Source: a virus. Taken from it: DNA of 22,026 bases. Positions 872 through 22,026 of the stretch are shown here, piece by piece. The stretch covers positions 1 to 22,026 of IMG/VR virus record IMGVR_UViG_3300049477_000108; one strand, 5' to 3'. Both the position numbers and the translations under genes were made by a program. A model generated the notes under the pieces. That model made no database searches, was not told the origin of the DNA, and saw only the letters and a list, made by a program, of their open reading frames with translations. Each line of letters opens with the position of its first letter. Position 1 is the first letter of the stretch.

Positions 872-1099
872 ATGGGGGCTTTGTTTGATGAGAAAACGAA
901 GTTTGCTTGGCCCATCGTAGTAGTCCTCCTGGGCGGGGCGGCATGGCTGACTAGCCTGCACTGGAATGTCTCCCACGCCCACCAGAAGCTGGACGAGATG
1001 AAGGCCGACCAGAAGGCTTACGCGGAAGGCCAACAGAAGATTCTTCGGGAGCTTTCCCGCATCCAGGGGAAGATGGGGTTGATGCCTGATGAAAAATAA
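872..1099 (+). CDS. Small membrane protein with coiled coil (holin or inner-membrane spanin candidate)
   Basis: A 75-residue protein with a short N-terminal tail, one hydrophobic segment at about residues 11-30 and a charged, heptad-like helical tail at about 31-65. This N-in, C-out single-pass layout with a coiled coil matches both small single-pass holins and Rz-type inner-membrane spanins; sequence alone does not decide. Its place immediately before the endolysin supports a lysis role. The start is preceded by a G-rich stretch (859-870) that is repeated exactly upstream of the gene at 5615. It overlaps the endolysin start by 11 bases, suggesting translational coupling. Confidence 0.6.
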   Translation: MGALFDEKTKFAWPIVVVLLGGAAWLTSLHWNVSHAHQKLDEMKADQKAYAEGQQKILRELSRIQGKMGLMPDEK

Positions 1100-1565
1100 C
1101 CGGGAGAAAATCAGGGTCAGCCTGTCTGTCCTGTACCTGCCGTACTATGACAAGCTGTGTGAGGCCCTGGGCCCCATGTGGCAGCCCTACAACGGCCTCC
1201 GGTCCATGGAACTGCAAGCAACGCTGTACGCCACGGGAAGAACGAGATCGGGCAAAATCGTTACTAACGCCCGGCCCGGGGAAAGCCCCCACAACTATGG
1301 CATGGCTACTGACTGGGCCCCGACCCACAACGGCCAGCCCTTCTGGCCGAATGCCAGCGATCCCCTGTGGCTAGACTACGGGAAGGCGGTCAAAGACGTC
1401 GGGCTCAAGTGGGGCGGGAACTTCACCAAGTTCATTGACTGCCCCCACAACGAGCTTCAGATCACCGGCCCCTGGGCCAAGCTCCAGCCGGTCTTCGACC
1501 AGGGGGGTTTGTCTGCGGTGGAAAAATTCGTGGTGGAGCGATGCTTGAAAAGCTCAGAGCCCTGA
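1089..1565 (+). CDS. Endolysin, M15-family peptidase (D-Ala-D-Ala carboxypeptidase / L-Ala-D-Glu endopeptidase type)
   Basis: A 158-residue peptidoglycan peptidase expected to cut the peptide stems of the host wall at lysis. The zinc-site motifs of family M15 are visible: SPHNYGMATDW at residues 66-76 supplies His68 and Asp75, and FIDCPHNEL at 115-123 supplies the catalytic-type Asp117 and the third ligand His120. The Asp-x-x-His spacing is the one known from the T5 endolysin. The length is normal for a single-domain phage M15 endolysin. No signal peptide or wall-binding domain is seen, so export would need a holin; candidates lie on both sides. The gene overlaps the preceding membrane protein and the following one, as in a compact lysis operon. 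The exact bond cleaved cannot be read from sequence. Confidence 0.9.
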   Translation: MKNNREKIRVSLSVLYLPYYDKLCEALGPMWQPYNGLRSMELQATLYATGRTRSGKIVTNARPGESPHNYGMATDWAPTHNGQPFWPNASDPLWLDYGKAVKDVGLKWGGNFTKFIDCPHNELQITGPWAKLQPVFDQGGLSAVEKFVVERCLKSSEP

Positions 1566-2005
1566 ACCTTTTACTATCCCTCCTGGGCGGGGTAACCTAT
1601 CTTTTACGGCAGATATGGGCCTGGATCAGGCCCCAAACCAAGCAAAAGGAGCTTTCCATGGGTGAGGCGGTGGGTGTGAAGGAGATGAAGGAAGTCGTCG
1701 ATGCGGTCCTGGACTGCGTGGACCTGGGTAAGGCCGTTGCGGCTGATGGCAAGGTGGACCTGGGCGACCTGGACGACCTGCTGAAAGCCCTCCCCGGCCT
1801 CGTGGGAAGTGTCTCGGCGGCTGTGAAGGACGCCAGCCAGATCGTTCCGGAAGCCAAAGACCTCTCCGCCGAAGAACTGGCTGAGCTGGGCGCCCACGTC
1901 ATGGCGCGGCTGGCCGTTGCCAACGAGAAGGCCGTGAAGGTCGTGGAAGCCTCCCTGAAGGTGGCGGCCTCGGTCCTGGGCCTCGTGAAGGCGATCCAGG
2001 CGTAG
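1541..2005 (+). CDS. Lysis-region helical protein with N-terminal membrane segment and a possible internal start
   Basis: From ATG 1541 the product is 154 residues: a hydrophobic segment at about 6-29, then a long, mostly alpha-helical Ala/Val/Asp/Lys-rich region without recognised motifs. A second in-frame ATG at 1658 (residue 40) has a better ribosome-binding site (AAAAGGA at 1644-1650, 7 bases away) and would give a soluble 115-residue protein without the membrane segment. The start at 1541 has only a GGAG four bases upstream and lies within the endolysin gene. Either the real gene starts at 1658 and the 5' part is a short membrane peptide, or both products are made. A holin/antiholin-like pair is one reading; the function is unknown. 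The next gene starts 2 bases after the stop. Confidence 0.6.
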   Translation: MLEKLRALNLLLSLLGGVTYLLRQIWAWIRPQTKQKELSMGEAVGVKEMKEVVDAVLDCVDLGKAVAADGKVDLGDLDDLLKALPGLVGSVSAAVKDASQIVPEAKDLSAEELAELGAHVMARLAVANEKAVKVVEASLKVAASVLGLVKAIQA

Positions 2006-2006
2006 T

Positions 2007-2219
2007 ATGTCCACTTGGCAGGGCCTCTTGGCCGCGTTTCAGGTTCTGAAAGAACTGATCGACGGGGCCAAGTGGCTCGCCCAGTGGGTAAACGAGAACA
2101 AGGACGAGAAGTGGTTCCAAGAGTCCGCCGCCCTGTTCTCCGACCTCCGGAAGGCGAAAACCCCAGATGAAAAGAAACTGGCTGCTGAGCGCCTGCGCGA
2201 TCTTATCCGTAAGCTCTAG
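2007..2219 (+). CDS. Small helical protein of the lysis region, unknown function
   Basis: A 70-residue protein beginning 2 bases after the previous stop. It is amphipathic and highly charged (many Lys, Glu and Asp, with WLAQW and KWF clusters), predicted all-helical, without a clear signal peptide or a long enough hydrophobic segment for a membrane anchor. The lipoprotein gene that follows begins inside its 3' end in another frame (53-base overlap). That arrangement recalls Rz/Rz1 pairs, but this protein lacks the inner-membrane anchor expected of Rz, so it is not called a spanin. The ORF is supported mainly by tight packing between two likely genes. Confidence 0.6.
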   Translation: MSTWQGLLAAFQVLKELIDGAKWLAQWVNENKDEKWFQESAALFSDLRKAKTPDEKKLAAERLRDLIRKL

Positions 2220-2415
2220 CGGGTGCGTTTCGGGGCCCCGGGTAAGCCCATGCCTACTGGACCCAGCTAATGGTGTGTCGTACTGCGCCCCGGCCCAGGG
2301 CGGGGATGCCGTGGAGCTTCCGGTGGCCCAGATGGACAACTTCACCTGTTTTTCCCCGGACGACACCCAGACCTTGGTAGAATGGATCAAAAGGCGTAGT
2401 CGCCGGGAGAAGTGA
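2167..2415 (+). CDS. Outer-membrane spanin-like lipoprotein (Rz1-like)
   Basis: An 82-residue protein with a lipoprotein-type N-terminus: basic MKRN, a hydrophobic stretch at about residues 5-15, then SSSGC with Cys20 as the probable lipidated residue. The -3 position is Ser, which is weaker than the usual Leu. A closer lipobox (LSAC, Cys10) is too near the start for a signal peptide. The mature part contains three more cysteines and ends with a CFSPDD...LVEWIKRR pattern that I associate with small phage lipoproteins beside endolysins. The gene begins inside the previous one and ends in a TGATG overlap with the nozzle gene. Expected role: outer-membrane partner in the last step of lysis of a Gram-negative host. 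The inner-membrane partner is uncertain. Confidence 0.65.
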   Translation: MKRNWLLSACAILSVSSSGCVSGPRVSPCLLDPANGVSYCAPAQGGDAVELPVAQMDNFTCFSPDDTQTLVEWIKRRSRREK

Positions 2416-12895: not shown

Positions 12896-13287
12896 ACCCC
12901 GGCCCCAGGCCCCCCGCTTGGGGGAAACGCTTTGGCGCCAAGCGGTTCAGTGGGTACCGGAAGGTCTTTAATACTTACGTATCCAGCTCCAAGAGCAGGG
13001 GCATCCCCTGGCGCTTGGTCTTTGGCCTACGGTTCTGCGAACTGATCCGGGCCAATTGCGTCTACTGCGGCAAGCCTCCGCAGAATATTATGCGGCGGTC
13101 GTGTAAGCTTGGGGCTACCCGGTACCAGGGCCTGGACCGGAAGCGTAACTCAAGCGGCTACACCTGGGGGAACTCGGTCCCGTGCTGCGCCCGCTGCAAC
13201 AGCGTCAAAGGCCATCACCTGGACTACGCCACGATGCTAGCCGTAGGGAGAATCCTGGCGATCATAGAAAAACAGGGCCGGGGATAG
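12892..13287 (+). CDS. HNH endonuclease, possible CTG start
   Basis: A small phage-type HNH nuclease. Visible motifs: RGIPW helix start, CVYCG, then GLDRKRNSSGY, NSVPCCARCNSVKG. These give the two Cys pairs of the zinc site and the Asp/Asn residues of the beta-beta-alpha-metal core. The first standard start in frame is TTG 13015, which would remove KVFNTYVSSSKSRGIPW, a stretch normal for this family. The frame is open back to 12778 without ATG, GTG or TTG. CTG at 12892 overlaps the previous TGA (CTGA) and follows an AAGG/GGCGAGG-rich stretch, so it is proposed as the start (131 residues). Alternatives are a frameshift from the previous gene or the shorter form. Such genes may be free-standing homing endonucleases or assist packaging. 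Confidence 0.75.
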   Translation: MNPGPRPPAWGKRFGAKRFSGYRKVFNTYVSSSKSRGIPWRLVFGLRFCELIRANCVYCGKPPQNIMRRSCKLGATRYQGLDRKRNSSGYTWGNSVPCCARCNSVKGHHLDYATMLAVGRILAIIEKQGRG

Positions 13288-13747: not shown

Positions 13748-14080
13748 TTAGTCCCAGATATTAGGCCCGAGGGCCAAGTCCACTTTCTTCTGTTTGGACA
13801 GAAGCTCAAGCCTTTTTTTGATCAAAGCCCAAGTCTTGGGGCGAGCGATGAGAGAAAAGCCCCCGGTAGTTTCCACGGCGTCCAGCTTAGCCTGTTGCAA
13901 AGCGGCCACGGTACCGGTGTCCGTCTTGAGTTCGAGCGCCACGAAGTAGCCATTGATGCAAAGTATATAGTCTGGGTCCCCGATAATCGCTAGCTGCTGG
14001 ATCGGGAAGATCACAGTGTGGGGGAGCTTCTTTAGAAATGGCAGAACCCGGCTACGCCGAAACGCTGTTTCTGGATGCAC
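13748..14080 (-). CDS. VRR-NUC-type PD-(D/E)xK nuclease
   Basis: A 110-residue single-domain nuclease. The PD-(D/E)xK core is visible: an N-terminal helix with Glu4 (MHPETAF), GDPDYIL at residues 34-40 (Asp35/Asp37), ALELKTD at 48-54 (Glu50, Lys52) and a Gln-containing helix (LQQAKLDAVETTGG), ending in a small strand. The order matches the VRR-NUC fold found in phage replication modules, where such enzymes cut branched or structured DNA or recycle DNA. The start is a GTG at 14080 with AAGGGG seven bases upstream, and it overlaps the end of the polymerase gene by 29 bases. Exact substrate unknown. Confidence 0.75.
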   Translation of the reverse strand: MHPETAFRRSRVLPFLKKLPHTVIFPIQQLAIIGDPDYILCINGYFVALELKTDTGTVAALQQAKLDAVETTGGFSLIARPKTWALIKKRLELLSKQKKVDLALGPNIWD

Positions 14081-15971
14081 TCGGGAACCCCTTGTGTTTG
14101 GCAGCCAGATTCGTCGGGGACCATTCCATGCCGCAGGTCAGTGGGACGTACTTGGCTGGGTAGACCGATTCCATGATATCTTTGACGATCTTGGGGACCG
14201 TGTCTATTTCGCTCTCGTGGACGATGCAGGGGTTTTCATCGTGGACGGTCAGGACCAGCTTGGACTTCTTGCCTTCCAGGGCCTGGCTGATCCGGTTCAG
14301 GGCGATCTTGTTAACGTCAGCGCACCCGCCCGCGATGACGTAATTGGGTGCCCGGTAGGCGAACCGAGGATCAGGGAAGTGACAGCGGCGGCCTAGCCAG
14401 TTGTAAATCCAGCCCCGTGTCTCGGCGGTTTTAGTCATGCTGCGGCATACCATGTCGATCTCGGGGGCGGTCTGGAAGATCGACGCCCGGATAGCCTTAG
14501 CCTTCTCCAGGGAGCAACCCAGGCTCTCGGCCAGCTTCTTGTCCCCCCCGCCGTAGATGCTCAGGAAGTTGGTCGTCTTAGCTGCGTCCCGGTCGATATG
14601 GGCCTGCACGGCGACAGCCGTATGGACGTCCATGCCGCCTAGGACTTTCTCTACCAGAGGTGTCTTGGCGCCTACGTGGGTGGCCGCGTAGTCCAGCATC
14701 ATCCGGTATTCCATCTGGTCGTAGTCCGGCATAATGAAAACATACCCAGGCGGGGGGATAATCGCCTTTCGGACCAGGAAGTCTTTCTCACCTACTTCGC
14801 CACCGCACTTGAGGCAGACCTCCGTGAAATGCTCGTGCTGGGCGCCGCAAGCGCCGCATTCAAAAGCCTTCTCGGACGTCAGGTTCTGGAAGTTGGGGTC
14901 TGACGACGACAGCCGCCCGTGGGCCGTGCCGTCTTGGTTGAAGTTAGGATGGATATACCCACGGTCGTCCATGTGGTCGAGGAAGCCCGCGTAGAAGTCT
15001 TGCTTGGACTTGGCATCACGGTAAGCCAGAACGGCCCTAGCCACGGGGGAGTTAAACTTCTTTAACACGTCGCTTTCAAAGCTCGGGTTACCCTTGGGGG
15101 TGTACTCCCACTGGTGTTTCTGGTCGGCAAAGACGTCGGCAAACAGCTTGGGGCTAGCCATGAAGGTCTTCCCGGTCAGGGCGTGGAACTCCAGTGTGGC
15201 TTTGACAGCCCGGTCGGCCTCATGGGCTAGGGCTTGCTTGGTGTAATATACGTCCACCAGAAGGCCGGTGCGCTCCATCTGGAACAAGGTCTTGGTCAGG
15301 TCTTCTTCGTTCAGTACCACGTTACGCAGCGTAGGGGCTGGGCCCCGGCCCAGGTCAAGTTCGTGGCCTTTGATCGACAGAGAGTCGGTCAGGGCTACCA
15401 CGAGCCTGACGTCCTGCTCTGCGTAGGGCTGAATGATCTCTAGGGGCACTTTGTCATAGTGAAGTTCTGTGCGGGAGGCCTTGCGCCCTGGCACGGCCAC
15501 GCGGGTCTTGAGCCCATGGGCGTCGATATACTTCTCTACCGTGTCGTCTTTCTTGAGCCCGAGCCGTTTGACGCTCTCTTCTAAAGAGTAGCTCATGTGT
15601 TCGTTGTACATAATCCGCCCCATGGCCCGGGTACAAGCCACCCGGCCTTTGATCTCCAAGCCAGACGCATGCAGCATGGCCATGTCAAACTTGGCATTAT
15701 GCGCAAACCATGTCTTGGAGACATCCCCAAACAGCATTCCCTGGAGTGACTGAAAATGCTCCGGGCCCAGGACTGACTCCGGGTCGGCGCCCAGGGGATT
15801 CCAGTTAAAGTAGAAGACGTCTGGGGTCTCCTCACACGTAGCAATGGCAATAGAAAAAAGCCGGTCGCTCTTGTAAGGCCTCAGGCCTGTAGTCTCGGTA
15901 TCCAGGGCAAGCGCGGTGTGCTTGCTCAGAGCGACCAAAACGGCAGGGAAAAGCGACCGGCTTACTAGCAT
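14052..15971 (-). CDS. DNA polymerase I (family A) with 3'-5' exonuclease and inserted Cys4 ribbon
   Basis: A 639-residue replicative polymerase without a 5'-3' exonuclease domain. Proofreading domain: LDTETTGL (Asp24, Glu26), HNAKFD (Asp96), YAEQD (Asp187). Polymerase domain: GTAHGRLSSSDPNFQNL at ~348-364; motif A MPDYDQMEYR (Asp416, Glu421); motif B RDAAKTTNFLSIYGG (Arg461, Lys465, Phe469, Tyr473); motif C TVHDE (Asp578, Glu579). Between the GRLSS region and motif A lies an insertion with Cys372, Cys375, Cys386 and Cys389, a probable zinc ribbon. Phe469 corresponds to Pol I residue 762, where Phe or Tyr has been linked to virulent phages and Leu to temperate ones. The start overlaps the preceding stop (TAATG). 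All catalytic residues expected are present, so it should be active. Confidence 0.95.
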   Translation of the reverse strand: MLVSRSLFPAVLVALSKHTALALDTETTGLRPYKSDRLFSIAIATCEETPDVFYFNWNPLGADPESVLGPEHFQSLQGMLFGDVSKTWFAHNAKFDMAMLHASGLEIKGRVACTRAMGRIMYNEHMSYSLEESVKRLGLKKDDTVEKYIDAHGLKTRVAVPGRKASRTELHYDKVPLEIIQPYAEQDVRLVVALTDSLSIKGHELDLGRGPAPTLRNVVLNEEDLTKTLFQMERTGLLVDVYYTKQALAHEADRAVKATLEFHALTGKTFMASPKLFADVFADQKHQWEYTPKGNPSFESDVLKKFNSPVARAVLAYRDAKSKQDFYAGFLDHMDDRGYIHPNFNQDGTAHGRLSSSDPNFQNLTSEKAFECGACGAQHEHFTEVCLKCGGEVGEKDFLVRKAIIPPPGYVFIMPDYDQMEYRMMLDYAATHVGAKTPLVEKVLGGMDVHTAVAVQAHIDRDAAKTTNFLSIYGGGDKKLAESLGCSLEKAKAIRASIFQTAPEIDMVCRSMTKTAETRGWIYNWLGRRCHFPDPRFAYRAPNYVIAGGCADVNKIALNRISQALEGKKSKLVLTVHDENPCIVHESEIDTVPKIVKDIMESVYPAKYVPLTCGMEWSPTNLAAKHKGFPSASRNSVSA

Positions 15972-18470: not shown

Positions 18471-18892
18471 GTGGACCTCTTTTCCGCCAGCTTAGCTGCA
18501 AAATCAATGGGCTTGGCTGAATCCGCTTCTTTGCGCTCACGGATCAGCTTCTCCAGATTCTCCGTGCCACTGTAAGTGGCAAGCTCCAGAAGGCCTACGC
18601 CGTACAGCACCCCAAGCACCCAGCCGCTATCAAACGGCTCGGCGGGGCCGGAGAGCACGTTCATCAGCGGGTTGGCGCTGGCGGTCTTCATGTAGCTTTC
18701 CCGAAGCTTCTGGGCCATGAACATACGGGCGGCGGGCTGGGCCTGCTTGCCGTCGTCTTCTTCCTGGACTTCGTTGAACGCCGTCCGGATGGCCAATTCA
18801 AAGTTGGCTGGAATCTGCTTGTAGTGCCGGTTAGGGAACATGCCGGTGATATCAAGCCATTCCAGAATCTGCTTTTTATGTGCTGCTTTCAT
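18467..18892 (-). CDS. Unknown protein of the replication operon
   Basis: A 141-residue protein, mostly helical, with a basic start (MKAAHKKQILEWLD) and a mid-region that includes EEDDGKQAQ and a more hydrophobic WVLGVLYGVGLLELA segment. That segment is short and flanked by polar residues, so it is more likely a buried helix than a membrane anchor. ATGA overlaps link it to the helicase upstream and the coiled-coil gene downstream. The ribosome-binding region contains AAGAAAGAGAG. I do not recognise a family. Confidence 0.6.
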   Translation of the reverse strand: MKAAHKKQILEWLDITGMFPNRHYKQIPANFELAIRTAFNEVQEEDDGKQAQPAARMFMAQKLRESYMKTASANPLMNVLSGPAEPFDSGWVLGVLYGVGLLELATYSGTENLEKLIRERKEADSAKPIDFAAKLAEKRST

Positions 18893-20352
18893 TTGGTTCT
18901 CTCTTTCTTAAGTTCAGCCGATAAATCGGTAAGCAGCTTTTCTCCGATCTGAACTTTGTCCGCAAGCTTTTTCAGCACTAGCTCGTCGATGCTATTCTCT
19001 GTCACCAAGTCTATCCGAGTTACTTTGTCGTGTATCTCGCTACCGCCCCGGTGGTTGCGGGCCTCCGCCTGCTGGTCGTGATCAAGAGAGAAAGACCGGG
19101 AGTAGAAAATCGCATATGGCGCGGCGACCAAATTGATCCCGATGCCCCCTGAGCCGGGGTGACCGATCAGGACGTCGATGCTTGGGTCCGTGTTGAAAGC
19201 TTTTGCGTTGGCTTGGTTCTTCTCGCTGGAGCCCACTCCCCCATGGACTTCCGTATAACGCAGTTTCAGCTTGTCGCAGACCTGCTTGATTTGCTCGTAG
19301 TTTTGTTTCCACACGGCCCATACGATCACTTTCTTTCCGCGTAGGTCTTCCAGCAACTCGGCCAGAGCCTCTGCCTTGGGGTTGTCTTCCATGGCGATCT
19401 CTTCGCCTTCGGTCGTTTTGATATAGCCACTGGCAATCTGCTGAAGCCGCAGGGCCTTGGTAATAGCCAGCGTAGCCATGGACGCCTGGCCGGTGCTGGC
19501 GTCGATAACCGCGATCAGGTCTTTCTTCATGGCTTCGTATAGTTCCCGCTGCTTGGGGGCCATGGCTACTTTGATCTCTTTGCGTACCAGCGGCGGCAGG
19601 TCCAGGCAGTCAGCCTTCATGACGCGCATGGACTTGGCTGCGATCTTGGCGGCGATCTCTTCGTAGGCCCCGGGGATAATCTGCCAGTCAGGGAAATGCT
19701 TTTGGCTGGGCATCCCGGCGTTACGGTCCCGGAAGTAGCGGGCGCGAAAGACAAAGAAGTTATCCCCGAAAGTCTTGCCACCGTCCAAAACTAAGAACTG
19801 TTGGAAGATATCCATGGGGGAGTTAAGAATAGGCGAGCCAGTGAGAATCAGGCACTCGGGCCGGGGCTTCTGCTGGTTCACTAGCCGAGCCAAAGCTTTA
19901 GACCGTTTGCTAGTTGGCGACTTAATCCGGTGGGCCTCGTCGGCTATAACACACTCTGGCCGCCAGTCTTTGAACAGGGGGTATAAATCCGCCATGAGTA
20001 GCGACTCATAGTTGGTGACAAAAATTGTCCCCACCGGGGTGTCGCCTGAGTAGGCCATACGTAGAAAAGTAGTCACGCGCTTCTTCTGGGTGCCCTGCAA
20101 CAGCACGATCTTGTCAGGGTCTATAGTAGAGTGCTTGGCCCACTCGTCTTTCCAGTTACTGACTACAATCGGCGGGCAGAAGACCAGGGTCCGGTAGACT
20201 CTCTTCTGGGTGTTGAACTTGGTCCGCAGAATATTTATTGCCGTCCCCGTCTTCCCCGTCCCCATCTCGAAGAACAGAGCGAAATCCGGCAAAGACGTTG
20301 CTCTCTTTATAGCTTCGAGTTGATGCTTCCACGGCGGGATCAGGAAGTGCAT
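18889..20352 (-). CDS. SNF2-type superfamily 2 helicase
   Basis: A 487-residue ATPase with two RecA-like lobes. Motifs in order: Q-like WKHQLEAI (8-15); Walker A EMGTGKT (29-35); DEAH box IADEAHRIKS (136-145); motif III LTGSP (170-174); lobe 2 with KVIVWAVW (341-348), motif V GHPGSGGIGINL (397-408) and motif VI QAEARNHRGG (428-437, Arg fingers). This is the compact SNF2-like form common in phages, thought to remodel or translocate along DNA in replication or recombination. The start at 20352 is fixed by an in-frame TGA just before the ATG. Only a poor ribosome-binding site precedes it, so translation may depend on the overlapping upstream ORF. The end overlaps the next gene by ATGA. Confidence 0.93.
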   Translation of the reverse strand: MHFLIPPWKHQLEAIKRATSLPDFALFFEMGTGKTGTAINILRTKFNTQKRVYRTLVFCPPIVVSNWKDEWAKHSTIDPDKIVLLQGTQKKRVTTFLRMAYSGDTPVGTIFVTNYESLLMADLYPLFKDWRPECVIADEAHRIKSPTSKRSKALARLVNQQKPRPECLILTGSPILNSPMDIFQQFLVLDGGKTFGDNFFVFRARYFRDRNAGMPSQKHFPDWQIIPGAYEEIAAKIAAKSMRVMKADCLDLPPLVRKEIKVAMAPKQRELYEAMKKDLIAVIDASTGQASMATLAITKALRLQQIASGYIKTTEGEEIAMEDNPKAEALAELLEDLRGKKVIVWAVWKQNYEQIKQVCDKLKLRYTEVHGGVGSSEKNQANAKAFNTDPSIDVLIGHPGSGGIGINLVAAPYAIFYSRSFSLDHDQQAEARNHRGGSEIHDKVTRIDLVTENSIDELVLKKLADKVQIGEKLLTDLSAELKKERTK

Positions 20353-20467
20353 TCAGGATTTTCTCAACCTCTTTTGCTCGCTTGGGGCAGTTGCCTTCAG
20401 GCCTGACTCCGTAGTCGTCCGCCGTAGTAGGTGAGTCCAGGAAATTCAGGACCCTAGTCAGACTCAC
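20156..20467 (-). CDS. Small ORF overlapping the helicase 5' end (uncertain)
   Basis: A 103-codon frame that begins in an ATGA overlap with the stop of the preceding gene and covers the otherwise empty 115 bases before the helicase. Its first ~38 residues (MSLTRVLNFLDSP...KRAKEVEKILN) look like plausible protein. The remaining ~65 residues lie in another frame of the helicase gene and look low-complexity (DGDGEDGDGN), as expected of an out-of-frame shadow. It may be a real small gene, a leader that couples helicase translation, or the remnant of a longer gene. No domain recognised. Confidence 0.4.
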   Translation of the reverse strand: MSLTRVLNFLDSPTTADDYGVRPEGNCPKRAKEVEKILNALPDPAVEASTRSYKESNVFAGFRSVLRDGDGEDGDGNKYSADQVQHPEESLPDPGLLPADCSQ

Positions 20468-20727
20468 AGCGGCAGGTCCATCTGGTTGGCTACGACGATT
20501 TTCTTCTTCAGGGACATATGGGCTTTCCAGGCCTCACCGATCAGGGCCGCAAGCTCCTGCAACTCTTCGTAGGACATCACGGCCAGCTGGCCGGAGAACG
20601 TCACCCCTACGGGCCCAGCGATGATCTTGCCTGTTTCTTCTCTTACACCGTCCCGTAGCTCGCCTACCGTGAAGACCATTTGGGTTTCCCCGGTCAAGGC
20701 GCTGATTTTCTTCTTCTCATATTCCAT
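20464..20727 (-). CDS. Small protein of the replication operon, unknown function
   Basis: An 87-residue protein starting at ATG 20727. A GTG two codons upstream (20733) is too close to the ribosome-binding site. The leader TAAAGAAAGG (20736-20745) with an 8-base spacer includes the stop codon of the upstream glycosidase-like gene and is identical in layout to the one before the gene at 13732. The protein has a mixed strand-helix pattern (ISALTGETQMVFTVGELRDG, then SYEELQELAALIGEAWKAHM). No motif recognised. It links by ATGA to the next ORF. Confidence 0.6.
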   Translation of the reverse strand: MEYEKKKISALTGETQMVFTVGELRDGVREETGKIIAGPVGVTFSGQLAVMSYEELQELAALIGEAWKAHMSLKKKIVVANQMDLPL

Positions 20728-20742
20728 TGGCACAGCCTTTCT

Positions 20743-22026
20743 TTAGGGCAGCAAGCCCAGGGCTTTGGTCCGCAGGGCCTCAAACGCAGCCAGGCTACGG
20801 TTCCATGTCAGAGAGTTGGTCATCAGGGCCTTGGCTTCGGCTTCCAAGCCAGCGGCCATGATAATATCCACCCACTGGGAGGCTTCCCGAATCAGGGCTA
20901 GCCGTGCCGATGGATAGGCCTGCTTCTTGGCCCGGTCAGGATAGAGCAGCAAGCCATCACCCCAGCCGCCGAACTGGTAGGGGTTGGTGTTGACGTCGCG
21001 CCCAGGGAAAGCTGACCAGCCTTCGATGGTATTATAATAAAGCAGGTTGCGGATGTCATGCTTGAGCGCCAGCAAGTAGAAGCCAAAGACTTCCACGGCA
21101 GAGCGGTCAATGACCAAGTCCGGCGCACCGCTGGCCGCAGAGCCTTCGTTGCCATGTGACATATTTGAGACATAGGTCCAAAGCTCTTTACCAGCCGAAG
21201 CGTATTCAGCCGGGCAGGGGTAGAAGTCCCCGCTACCGCGCCAAGTCTCTTGGCACAGCTGCTCTGCCACAGGCACCCAGATTTTCACCCCTGCTGTGAC
21301 ATCGGCAGGCCAAGCGACCGTCTTACCGTAGTTAGGGCTAGACGTCCGGTAGTCCCGCTGGCGCAGCGGCGTAGTCAGCATGGGTTTCACCCACGGCGCG
21401 GTAGCCGCCCAAGCGGTCAGGGCTGTGCTGATACCCGCCGTGCTGCCGATAGCAGGCTCGTCTTGGATATACACCCAAGAGTCAGCGAGCCGAGGGGCCG
21501 TGGCCAGCCAGCCGTCCGGCGTACCCCAGTCCATGTAGACCGAGCCCAGCGCAAACGGGACGGTATACTTATTCCAGTCCGCCAGCGTCGGGCTCTCCAC
21601 GCCTTTGTACGGGCTGATCTTGAAGTCAGACAGCAGCTGCAAGGCGGGCAGGGCGTCCGCACCGGTAGCCACGCCCGAGCCGCCGTAGCCCAGGACCATG
21701 GTCCAGTTGTTGAAATCGGCATGCAGATTCACCCGGGGTTTGGCCGGGGCTAGGGTCTGCTTCTTGGTGATATTCACTTGGGCCGTACCCACCCGCATGC
21801 TGGCGTTCACAGGCACCCAGGCGAAGACCATGCCCTGGCAGTTATTAGAAGTAAGGGGCTCCATGCGGTCGTAGAAAGTCCCCGTGGGGTAACTCGGCGC
21901 AGAGCCCTTATTTGTCACCAGCGGGGTCAGCTTCATGATACCTGGCGTAGCCACCAGGCTACACGGATTAGAAGACTTCACGAACACGCCGGTCATCTGG
22001 CCGGTCAGGACCGTCCGGGTCATGAA
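20743..22026 (-). CDS. GH123 / DUF4091-like glycoside hydrolase (5' end at window edge)
   Basis: At least 426 residues; the frame is open to the right edge, so the N-terminus may be missing. The C-terminal ~130 residues carry the DUF4091 pattern: FGFYLLALKHDIRNLLYYNT, W336, GWGDGLLLYPDR (353-364), YPSARLALIREASQW (370-384). The middle has SWVYIQDEP (182-190), where adjacent Asp188-Glu189 fits the acid pair of GH123 enzymes that act by substrate-assisted catalysis on N-acetylhexosamines. Residues ~60-95 (VFAWVPVNASMRVGTAQVNI) resemble the Ig-like domain before the barrel. No signal peptide is visible. It is the first gene seen in the replication operon, an unexpected place for a surface-glycan enzyme. 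Substrate unknown; a virion depolymerase or host-envelope enzyme are both possible. Confidence 0.7.
   Translation of the reverse strand, partial: FMTRTVLTGQMTGVFVKSSNPCSLVATPGIMKLTPLVTNKGSAPSYPTGTFYDRMEPLTSNNCQGMVFAWVPVNASMRVGTAQVNITKKQTLAPAKPRVNLHADFNNWTMVLGYGGSGVATGADALPALQLLSDFKISPYKGVESPTLADWNKYTVPFALGSVYMDWGTPDGWLATAPRLADSWVYIQDEPAIGSTAGISTALTAWAATAPWVKPMLTTPLRQRDYRTSSPNYGKTVAWPADVTAGVKIWVPVAEQLCQETWRGSGDFYPCPAEYASAGKELWTYVSNMSHGNEGSAASGAPDLVIDRSAVEVFGFYLLALKHDIRNLLYYNTIEGWSAFPGRDVNTNPYQFGGWGDGLLLYPDRAKKQAYPSARLALIREASQWVDIIMAAGLEAEAKALMTNSLTWNRSLAAFEALRTKALGLLP

Follow-up and report, generated by a model that had tools for sequence, protein, structure and literature searches.

A divergent GH123/DUF4091-family glycosidase gene upstream of the replication genes in a phage record

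The window analysed here is a whole IMG/VR record of 22,026 bases in which two convergent gene blocks meet. Late genes occupy the plus strand, among them those for a tail-like protein, an endolysin and an internal-virion-like protein; the replication block, on the minus strand, encodes an SNF2 helicase, two Pam3-like proteins, an exonuclease and a family A DNA polymerase. The furthest-upstream visible gene of the replication block, which is truncated by the end of the record, is the subject of this report (Table 1); it is a minus-strand ORF of 427 aa, stop-free and with an open 5′ end, at the position given in the first-pass annotation. Elsewhere in the window we noted a lysis cassette (1089–2415, plus strand) consisting of the endolysin gene followed by small genes, in which the endolysin shares 41% identity over 99 aa with an endolysin of L050, a phage-like record that is considered below, and a lipoprotein-like ORF (2167–2415, plus strand) may be part of a spanin. 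Where the convergent blocks meet, a 90-codon ORF (13015–13287, plus strand) has the look of an HNH endonuclease (CxxC ... CARCNSVKGHH).

Table 1. Positions in the window of the glycosidase gene, its parts and neighbouring genes of the replication operon.
Feature	Position	Strand	Remarks
GH123/DUF4091-family glycosidase gene	20743..22026	-	427 codons, stop-free, open at the 5′ edge of the record
Residues 1–95, most of N-terminal beta-sandwich	21742..22026	-	Lacks the first strand and any signal peptide; alignment to L046 and to NgaCa-type chains, model strands 2–90
Residues 96–335, (beta/alpha)8-barrel-like catalytic region	21022..21741	-	Model; loops poorly modelled
Catalytic Asp-Glu pair	21457..21462	-	D188-E189 from Met, D189-E190 counting Phe1; invariant against 11 bacterial sequences (alignment A2)
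Tyr285 (NgaLy Y392, substrate recognition), kept	21172..21174	-	Alignment
Asn327 at the NgaLy Gly427 site, substituted	21046..21048	-	Alignment
Tyr331 at the NgaLy Trp431 site, substituted	21034..21036	-	Common to five other viral-record proteins
C-terminal DUF4091 segment	20842..21021	-	GDGLLLYP (Y362 = NgaLy Y466), PSARLALIRE (R375 = NgaLy R478)
Next gene of the operon, 87–89 aa	20464..20727	-	33% identity to counterpart in relative L001
SNF2-type helicase, replication operon	18889..20352	-	59% identical in L001
Family A DNA polymerase, replication operon	14052..15971	-	Pfam/PHROG scans

Between the stop codon of the glycosidase gene (TAA, 20743–20745) and the ATG of the downstream gene (20727) there are 15 nt, which include the ribosome-binding-like sequence AGAAAGG, and terminator-like sites were absent from 20300–22026. 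Given the short spacing and the absence of a terminator-like site, the gene is likely to be on one transcript with the replication genes; its description as the head of a replication operon holds for the visible part of the operon. Standing on the opposite strand and 15 nt upstream of the next replication-block gene, it is not encoded with the late tail genes. Separately, we observed inside the gene a sequence directed at the replication genes (21031–21059, minus strand; ATGACA, 17 nt, TATAAT) that matches the sigma-70 consensus at 11 of 12 positions, as a consensus match only.

Standard searches that started from the window protein came back empty. The Pfam check for DUF4091 that the first-pass annotation had proposed does not, with the GH123_cat model (PF13320) alone, detect the protein even at E ≤ 10; hmmscan placed it in no PHROG family; phmmer against the PDB gave no match; and pattern scans of the viral and genome collections, made from the window protein alone, retrieved nothing. 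We therefore built a profile from fetched bacterial members of GH123, which were collected by a DNA pattern for GDGFLxYPGP and then by PF13320. This profile, made of 34 diverse bacterial GH123 domains with the window protein left out, scored 47.9 bits against the window protein over aligned residues 183–389 (controls: other ORFs of the window, ≤4.3 bits; best of 2000 shuffles, 9.7 bits), and a chance match to GH123 is excluded. Direct comparison of the window protein with GH123 by hhalign gave a probability of 98.5 and an E-value of 1.9e-14. A protein of 486 aa from another viral record, L046, served as an intermediate: it aligned with the window protein over 423 columns at 21.5% identity (E = 6e-20), and it exceeds the PF13320 cut-off (31.7 vs 23.1 bits), indicating that the failure of PF13320 on the window protein reflects a limit of that model's reach. 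When a joint profile of the window protein and 12 relatives was searched against the whole PDB, all sequence matches at E ≤ 0.01 (11 of 11) were GH123 enzymes. On these comparisons we assign the window gene to the GH123/DUF4091 family as a divergent member, in agreement with the identity first proposed for it. In a tree, the window protein sits on a long branch (2.6) in an unresolved region, with L046 as its nearest sequence, and a single viral origin of the GH123 genes was not supported.

The fold expected of the family was also recovered. An AlphaFold2 model computed from an alignment with relatives reached modest confidence (pLDDT 54.9, pTM 0.67) and displayed beta-sandwich strands followed by a barrel-like region, with the Asp-Glu pair ending the strand at residues 183–189. 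Foldseek comparison of this model with the PDB returned 16 matches at E ≤ 0.001, every one of them a GH123 enzyme (best 5.8e-10); since the alignment behind the model contained GH123 relatives, this agreement and the sequence evidence are not independent. Nothing was found at E ≤ 0.001 when the model was compared with viral models, and a prediction from the single sequence was discarded (pLDDT 33.8). As modelled, the protein is thus supported as a beta-sandwich joined to a (beta/alpha)8 barrel.

All three motifs picked out by eye beforehand (D188-E189, GDGLLLYP, here within GWGDGLLLYP, and PSARLALIRE) are present in the translation of the ORF, and the Asp-Glu pair aligned, both in A2 and by HMM, with the DE motif of the family, the consecutive catalytic motif of GH123 as defined previously (PMC11087588). 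Nine residues are strictly conserved in all characterised groups of the family (NgaLy D95, W115, D327, E328, Y392, G427, W431, Y466 and R478; Sumida et al., PMC11087588). Mapped by alignment and numbered from Phe1, seven of these are kept in the window protein (D53, W70, D189, E190, Y285, Y362 and R375) and two are changed: Gly427 is replaced by Asn327, and the active-site Trp431 by Tyr331. Tyrosine at the Trp431 site also occurs in five proteins of other viral records (L046, L048, L049, L050 and L051) and in 3 of about 80 bacterial members examined (L078, L080 and L083), among which Trp predominates. In NgaLy, W431A loses much activity and G427 variants are hardly soluble (PMC11087588), and the Asn and Tyr found at these sites may therefore matter for activity or specificity. 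Two differences at strictly conserved positions, one of them in the active site, together with the long branch of the tree, would fit a GH123-fold protein whose catalysis has been lost or changed and that now binds or otherwise modifies a glycan. We consider this very unlikely, given that the Asp-Glu pair, Tyr285 and the inter-domain residues (D53, W70, Y362 and R375) are kept, that the change from Trp to Tyr is conservative and shared with the viral and bacterial proteins just listed, and that the reading frame is intact and coding-like.

The beginning of the protein appears to lie beyond the record. In the alignment with L046, the first residues of the window protein pair with the segment that follows the signal and linker of L046, and in comparison with PDB entries its start corresponds to approximately residue 37 of NgaCa. 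As the first residues of the window protein thus fall within the N-terminal beta-sandwich, the gene probably does not start at the ATG at 22023 and would run on beyond the record, with a missing N-terminus of about 35–85 residues that includes any signal peptide. By a crude score rather than SignalP, the N-terminus of L046 (MKRLLIALILTAC) is a lipoprotein-type signal and those of L049, L050, L051 and L053 are Sec-type signals. By analogy with these relatives, the window protein is probably exported by an N-terminal signal located beyond the record.

A search with the helicase yielded one relative, L001, which lies in a 45,003-base record, G001 (IMGVR_UViG_3300015194_000004; L001, L112, L113), in which structural and replication genes converge as they do in the window. 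Besides the helicase (59% identity), the polymerase (43%) and structural genes (35% over 1152 columns in one case, 43% over 232 in another) are related between the two records, and G001 carries terminase and portal genes. The ends of G001 overlap by 138 bp at 97.8% identity, indicating that it is a near-complete genome. Over its 45 kb, G001 has no match to the window protein or to the GH123 profile. Since a near-complete, syntenic genome does without it, the GH123 gene is an accessory gene in this phage group, on the evidence of this single relative. The suggestion that it is a recently gained cargo gene is supported as regards accessory status but not as regards recency: the composition and codon use of the gene are phage-like (GC 60.7% vs 58.0% in the window as a whole; a codon distance of 0.157, which is close to the range seen for genes of comparable length), giving no clear signal of recent transfer, and the protein is very divergent.

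GH123 genes are rare in phages, as the first-pass annotation had supposed. With tblastn, the window protein had no match in 50,697 phage records or in 72,556 plasmid records, and the sole match to the GH123 consensus among the phage records, L044 (MT836844.1, 'Bacteriophage sp.'), was rejected as a mislabelled Bacteroides contig, in which ORFs resembling SusD, GH78, GH20 and GH123 by eye read together as a polysaccharide-utilisation locus. Two alignment-based scans of IMG/VR found GH123 genes in about ten records. We did not count L045 and L048 as phage evidence because their GH123 sequences group with bacterial ones in the tree; these records are probably bacterial DNA called viral, or provirus flanks. 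GH123 genes whose products begin with signal peptides occur in at least five further phage-like records (L046, L049, L050, L051 and L053), and for L046, L049, L050 and L053 the phage structural or lysis neighbours were confirmed by PHROGs. The GH123 genes of L046, L050, L051 and L053 are complete, and the proteins of L051 and L050 are 61% identical. L046, the closest viral relative, has its GH123 gene and its tail genes on opposite strands, as in the window, and is also the only one to resemble the window gene in size. The proteins of L049–L053, of 263–763 aa, are encoded in late tail regions, unlike that of the window. In L049, L050, L051 and L053, the GH123 gene moreover belongs to a cluster of two to four adjacent genes, all with signals of Sec or lipoprotein type, in the tail/lysis region of a tailed-phage contig (L049, 5627–10570; L050, 6777–10522; L051, 652–5142; L053, 7179–11687), and one member of the cluster in L049 also matches tail-fibre families; no such cluster was seen in the window or in G001.

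Phage depolymerases, which are glycosidases or lyases of tail fibres and tailspikes, attack glycans of the host surface, and the usual tailspikes are beta-helices, a fold class other than that of GH123. The window protein could be such a virion-associated depolymerase, its GH123 domain providing the catalysis in a tail fibre, a tailspike or some other particle protein that cuts capsule, O-antigen or exopolysaccharide at adsorption. The location of the GH123 gene among tail, head and lysis genes in L049, L050, L051 and L053, some of whose GH123 proteins have short glycine-rich C-terminal tails, speaks for this reading; we nevertheless consider it unlikely. In both the window and L046 the gene and the tail genes are on opposite strands, and in the window replication genes follow it directly; signals of lipoprotein type, as in L046, and of Sec type, as in the others, are unusual for particle proteins, which are assembled in the cytoplasm; and the window protein belongs to no PHROG family. 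Unlike phage depolymerases, it also has no virion-anchoring domain in the part we see, the 5′ end of the gene being beyond the record.

GH123 is abundant in some environmental bacteria, being found in 101 of the 151 genomes of the phylum to which G006 (the Armatimonadetes MAG L010) belongs, and PF13320 matches 20 times in G006 alone. This abundance would suit an auxiliary metabolic gene whose exported product releases N-acetylgalactosamine or oligosaccharides from polymers in the environment and so feeds the infected host, and a precedent for a glycan-degrading enzyme on an environmental phage comes from a soil-virus chitosanase that was shown to be active (PMC9485262). It differs from the present case in the kind of enzyme and the neighbourhood of its gene, as well as in the activity of the window protein being a prediction. 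We rate a nutritional role as improbable, for the window gene lacks neighbours for transport or sugar use, a lone enzyme would give little, and the tie to the replication operon suggests that the gene serves during a lytic cycle.

Our first choice is instead that this is a captured, accessory tailed-phage gene for an exported, divergent GH123 beta-N-acetylhexosaminidase that acts on glycans of the host envelope or around the cell (probability roughly 45%), with the virion depolymerase and the nutritional role as its main rivals. As a working hypothesis for its role, the gene would be transcribed with the replication operon and its product made in the infected cell, exported by the predicted signal and directed at beta-linked N-acetylhexosamine in host-envelope glycans or in material around the cell. 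An N-acetylhexosamine polymer is a reasonable substrate to expect from the family, and beta-GalNAc would most likely be preferred. GH123 enzymes hydrolyse beta-linked N-acetylgalactosamine by a substrate-assisted mechanism in which Asp stabilises the acetamido group and Glu acts as acid/base (PMC11087588); by family membership, the window protein would be a retaining hydrolase of this kind, with Asp188 orienting the 2-acetamido group of the substrate and Glu189 as the predicted acid/base. The most plausible benefit would be a changed surface of the infected cell, with loss of the phage receptor and less re-adsorption of progeny. Against the envelope-acting enzyme, the GH123 genes of L049–L053 are located among late tail genes, unlike the early operon of the window. 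The candidate readings would differ in their targets, which would be host surface glycans for an envelope enzyme or a depolymerase, and environmental polymers for a nutritional enzyme.

A more specific proposal, likened to the receptor-destroying enzymes of some animal viruses, is that the protein is produced early and, after export, anchored in the envelope of the infected cell, where it would strip the N-acetylhexosamine glycan on which phages of this group adsorb, block superinfection and free the progeny. The lipoprotein-type signal of L046 suggests such anchoring, and as a whole we hold this proposal to be quite improbable; if it were true, the shared change from Trp to Tyr would mark a phage-adapted branch of the family.

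Among known systems, the window protein most resembles the GH123 beta-N-acetylgalactosaminidases, such as NgaCa (8k2f), NgaDssm (8k2j), NgaLy (8k2n), NgaP2 (8k2l), BvGH123 (5l7r) and CpNga123 (5fqe) (PMC11087588). It shares with them the order of beta-sandwich, barrel and DUF4091 segment, the DE motif and the equivalents of Y392, Y466, R478, D95 and W115. It differs from them in two substitutions (Gly427 to Asn and Trp431 to Tyr), an insertion near residues 249–268, a degenerate REASQWVDII in place of RDGIEDYEYL, an identity of only about 20% and in being encoded by a phage. With the GH123 proteins of other IMG/VR records it has in common a GH123 domain near phage structural or lysis genes and, in L046, L049, L050 and L051, the Tyr at the Trp431 site.

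The kind of enzyme is already known and its occurrence in phages unreported as far as our literature searches go, which found no report of GH123 in phages. That the standard Pfam model misses the window copy also indicates that sugar-cutting enzymes are under-counted when viral contigs are annotated with curated models. GH123, whose characterised members so far come from bacteria and a plant, is now placed in tailed phages, and L046, L050, L051 and L053 offer testable candidates for phage enzymes that may act on N-acetylhexosamine surface glycans.
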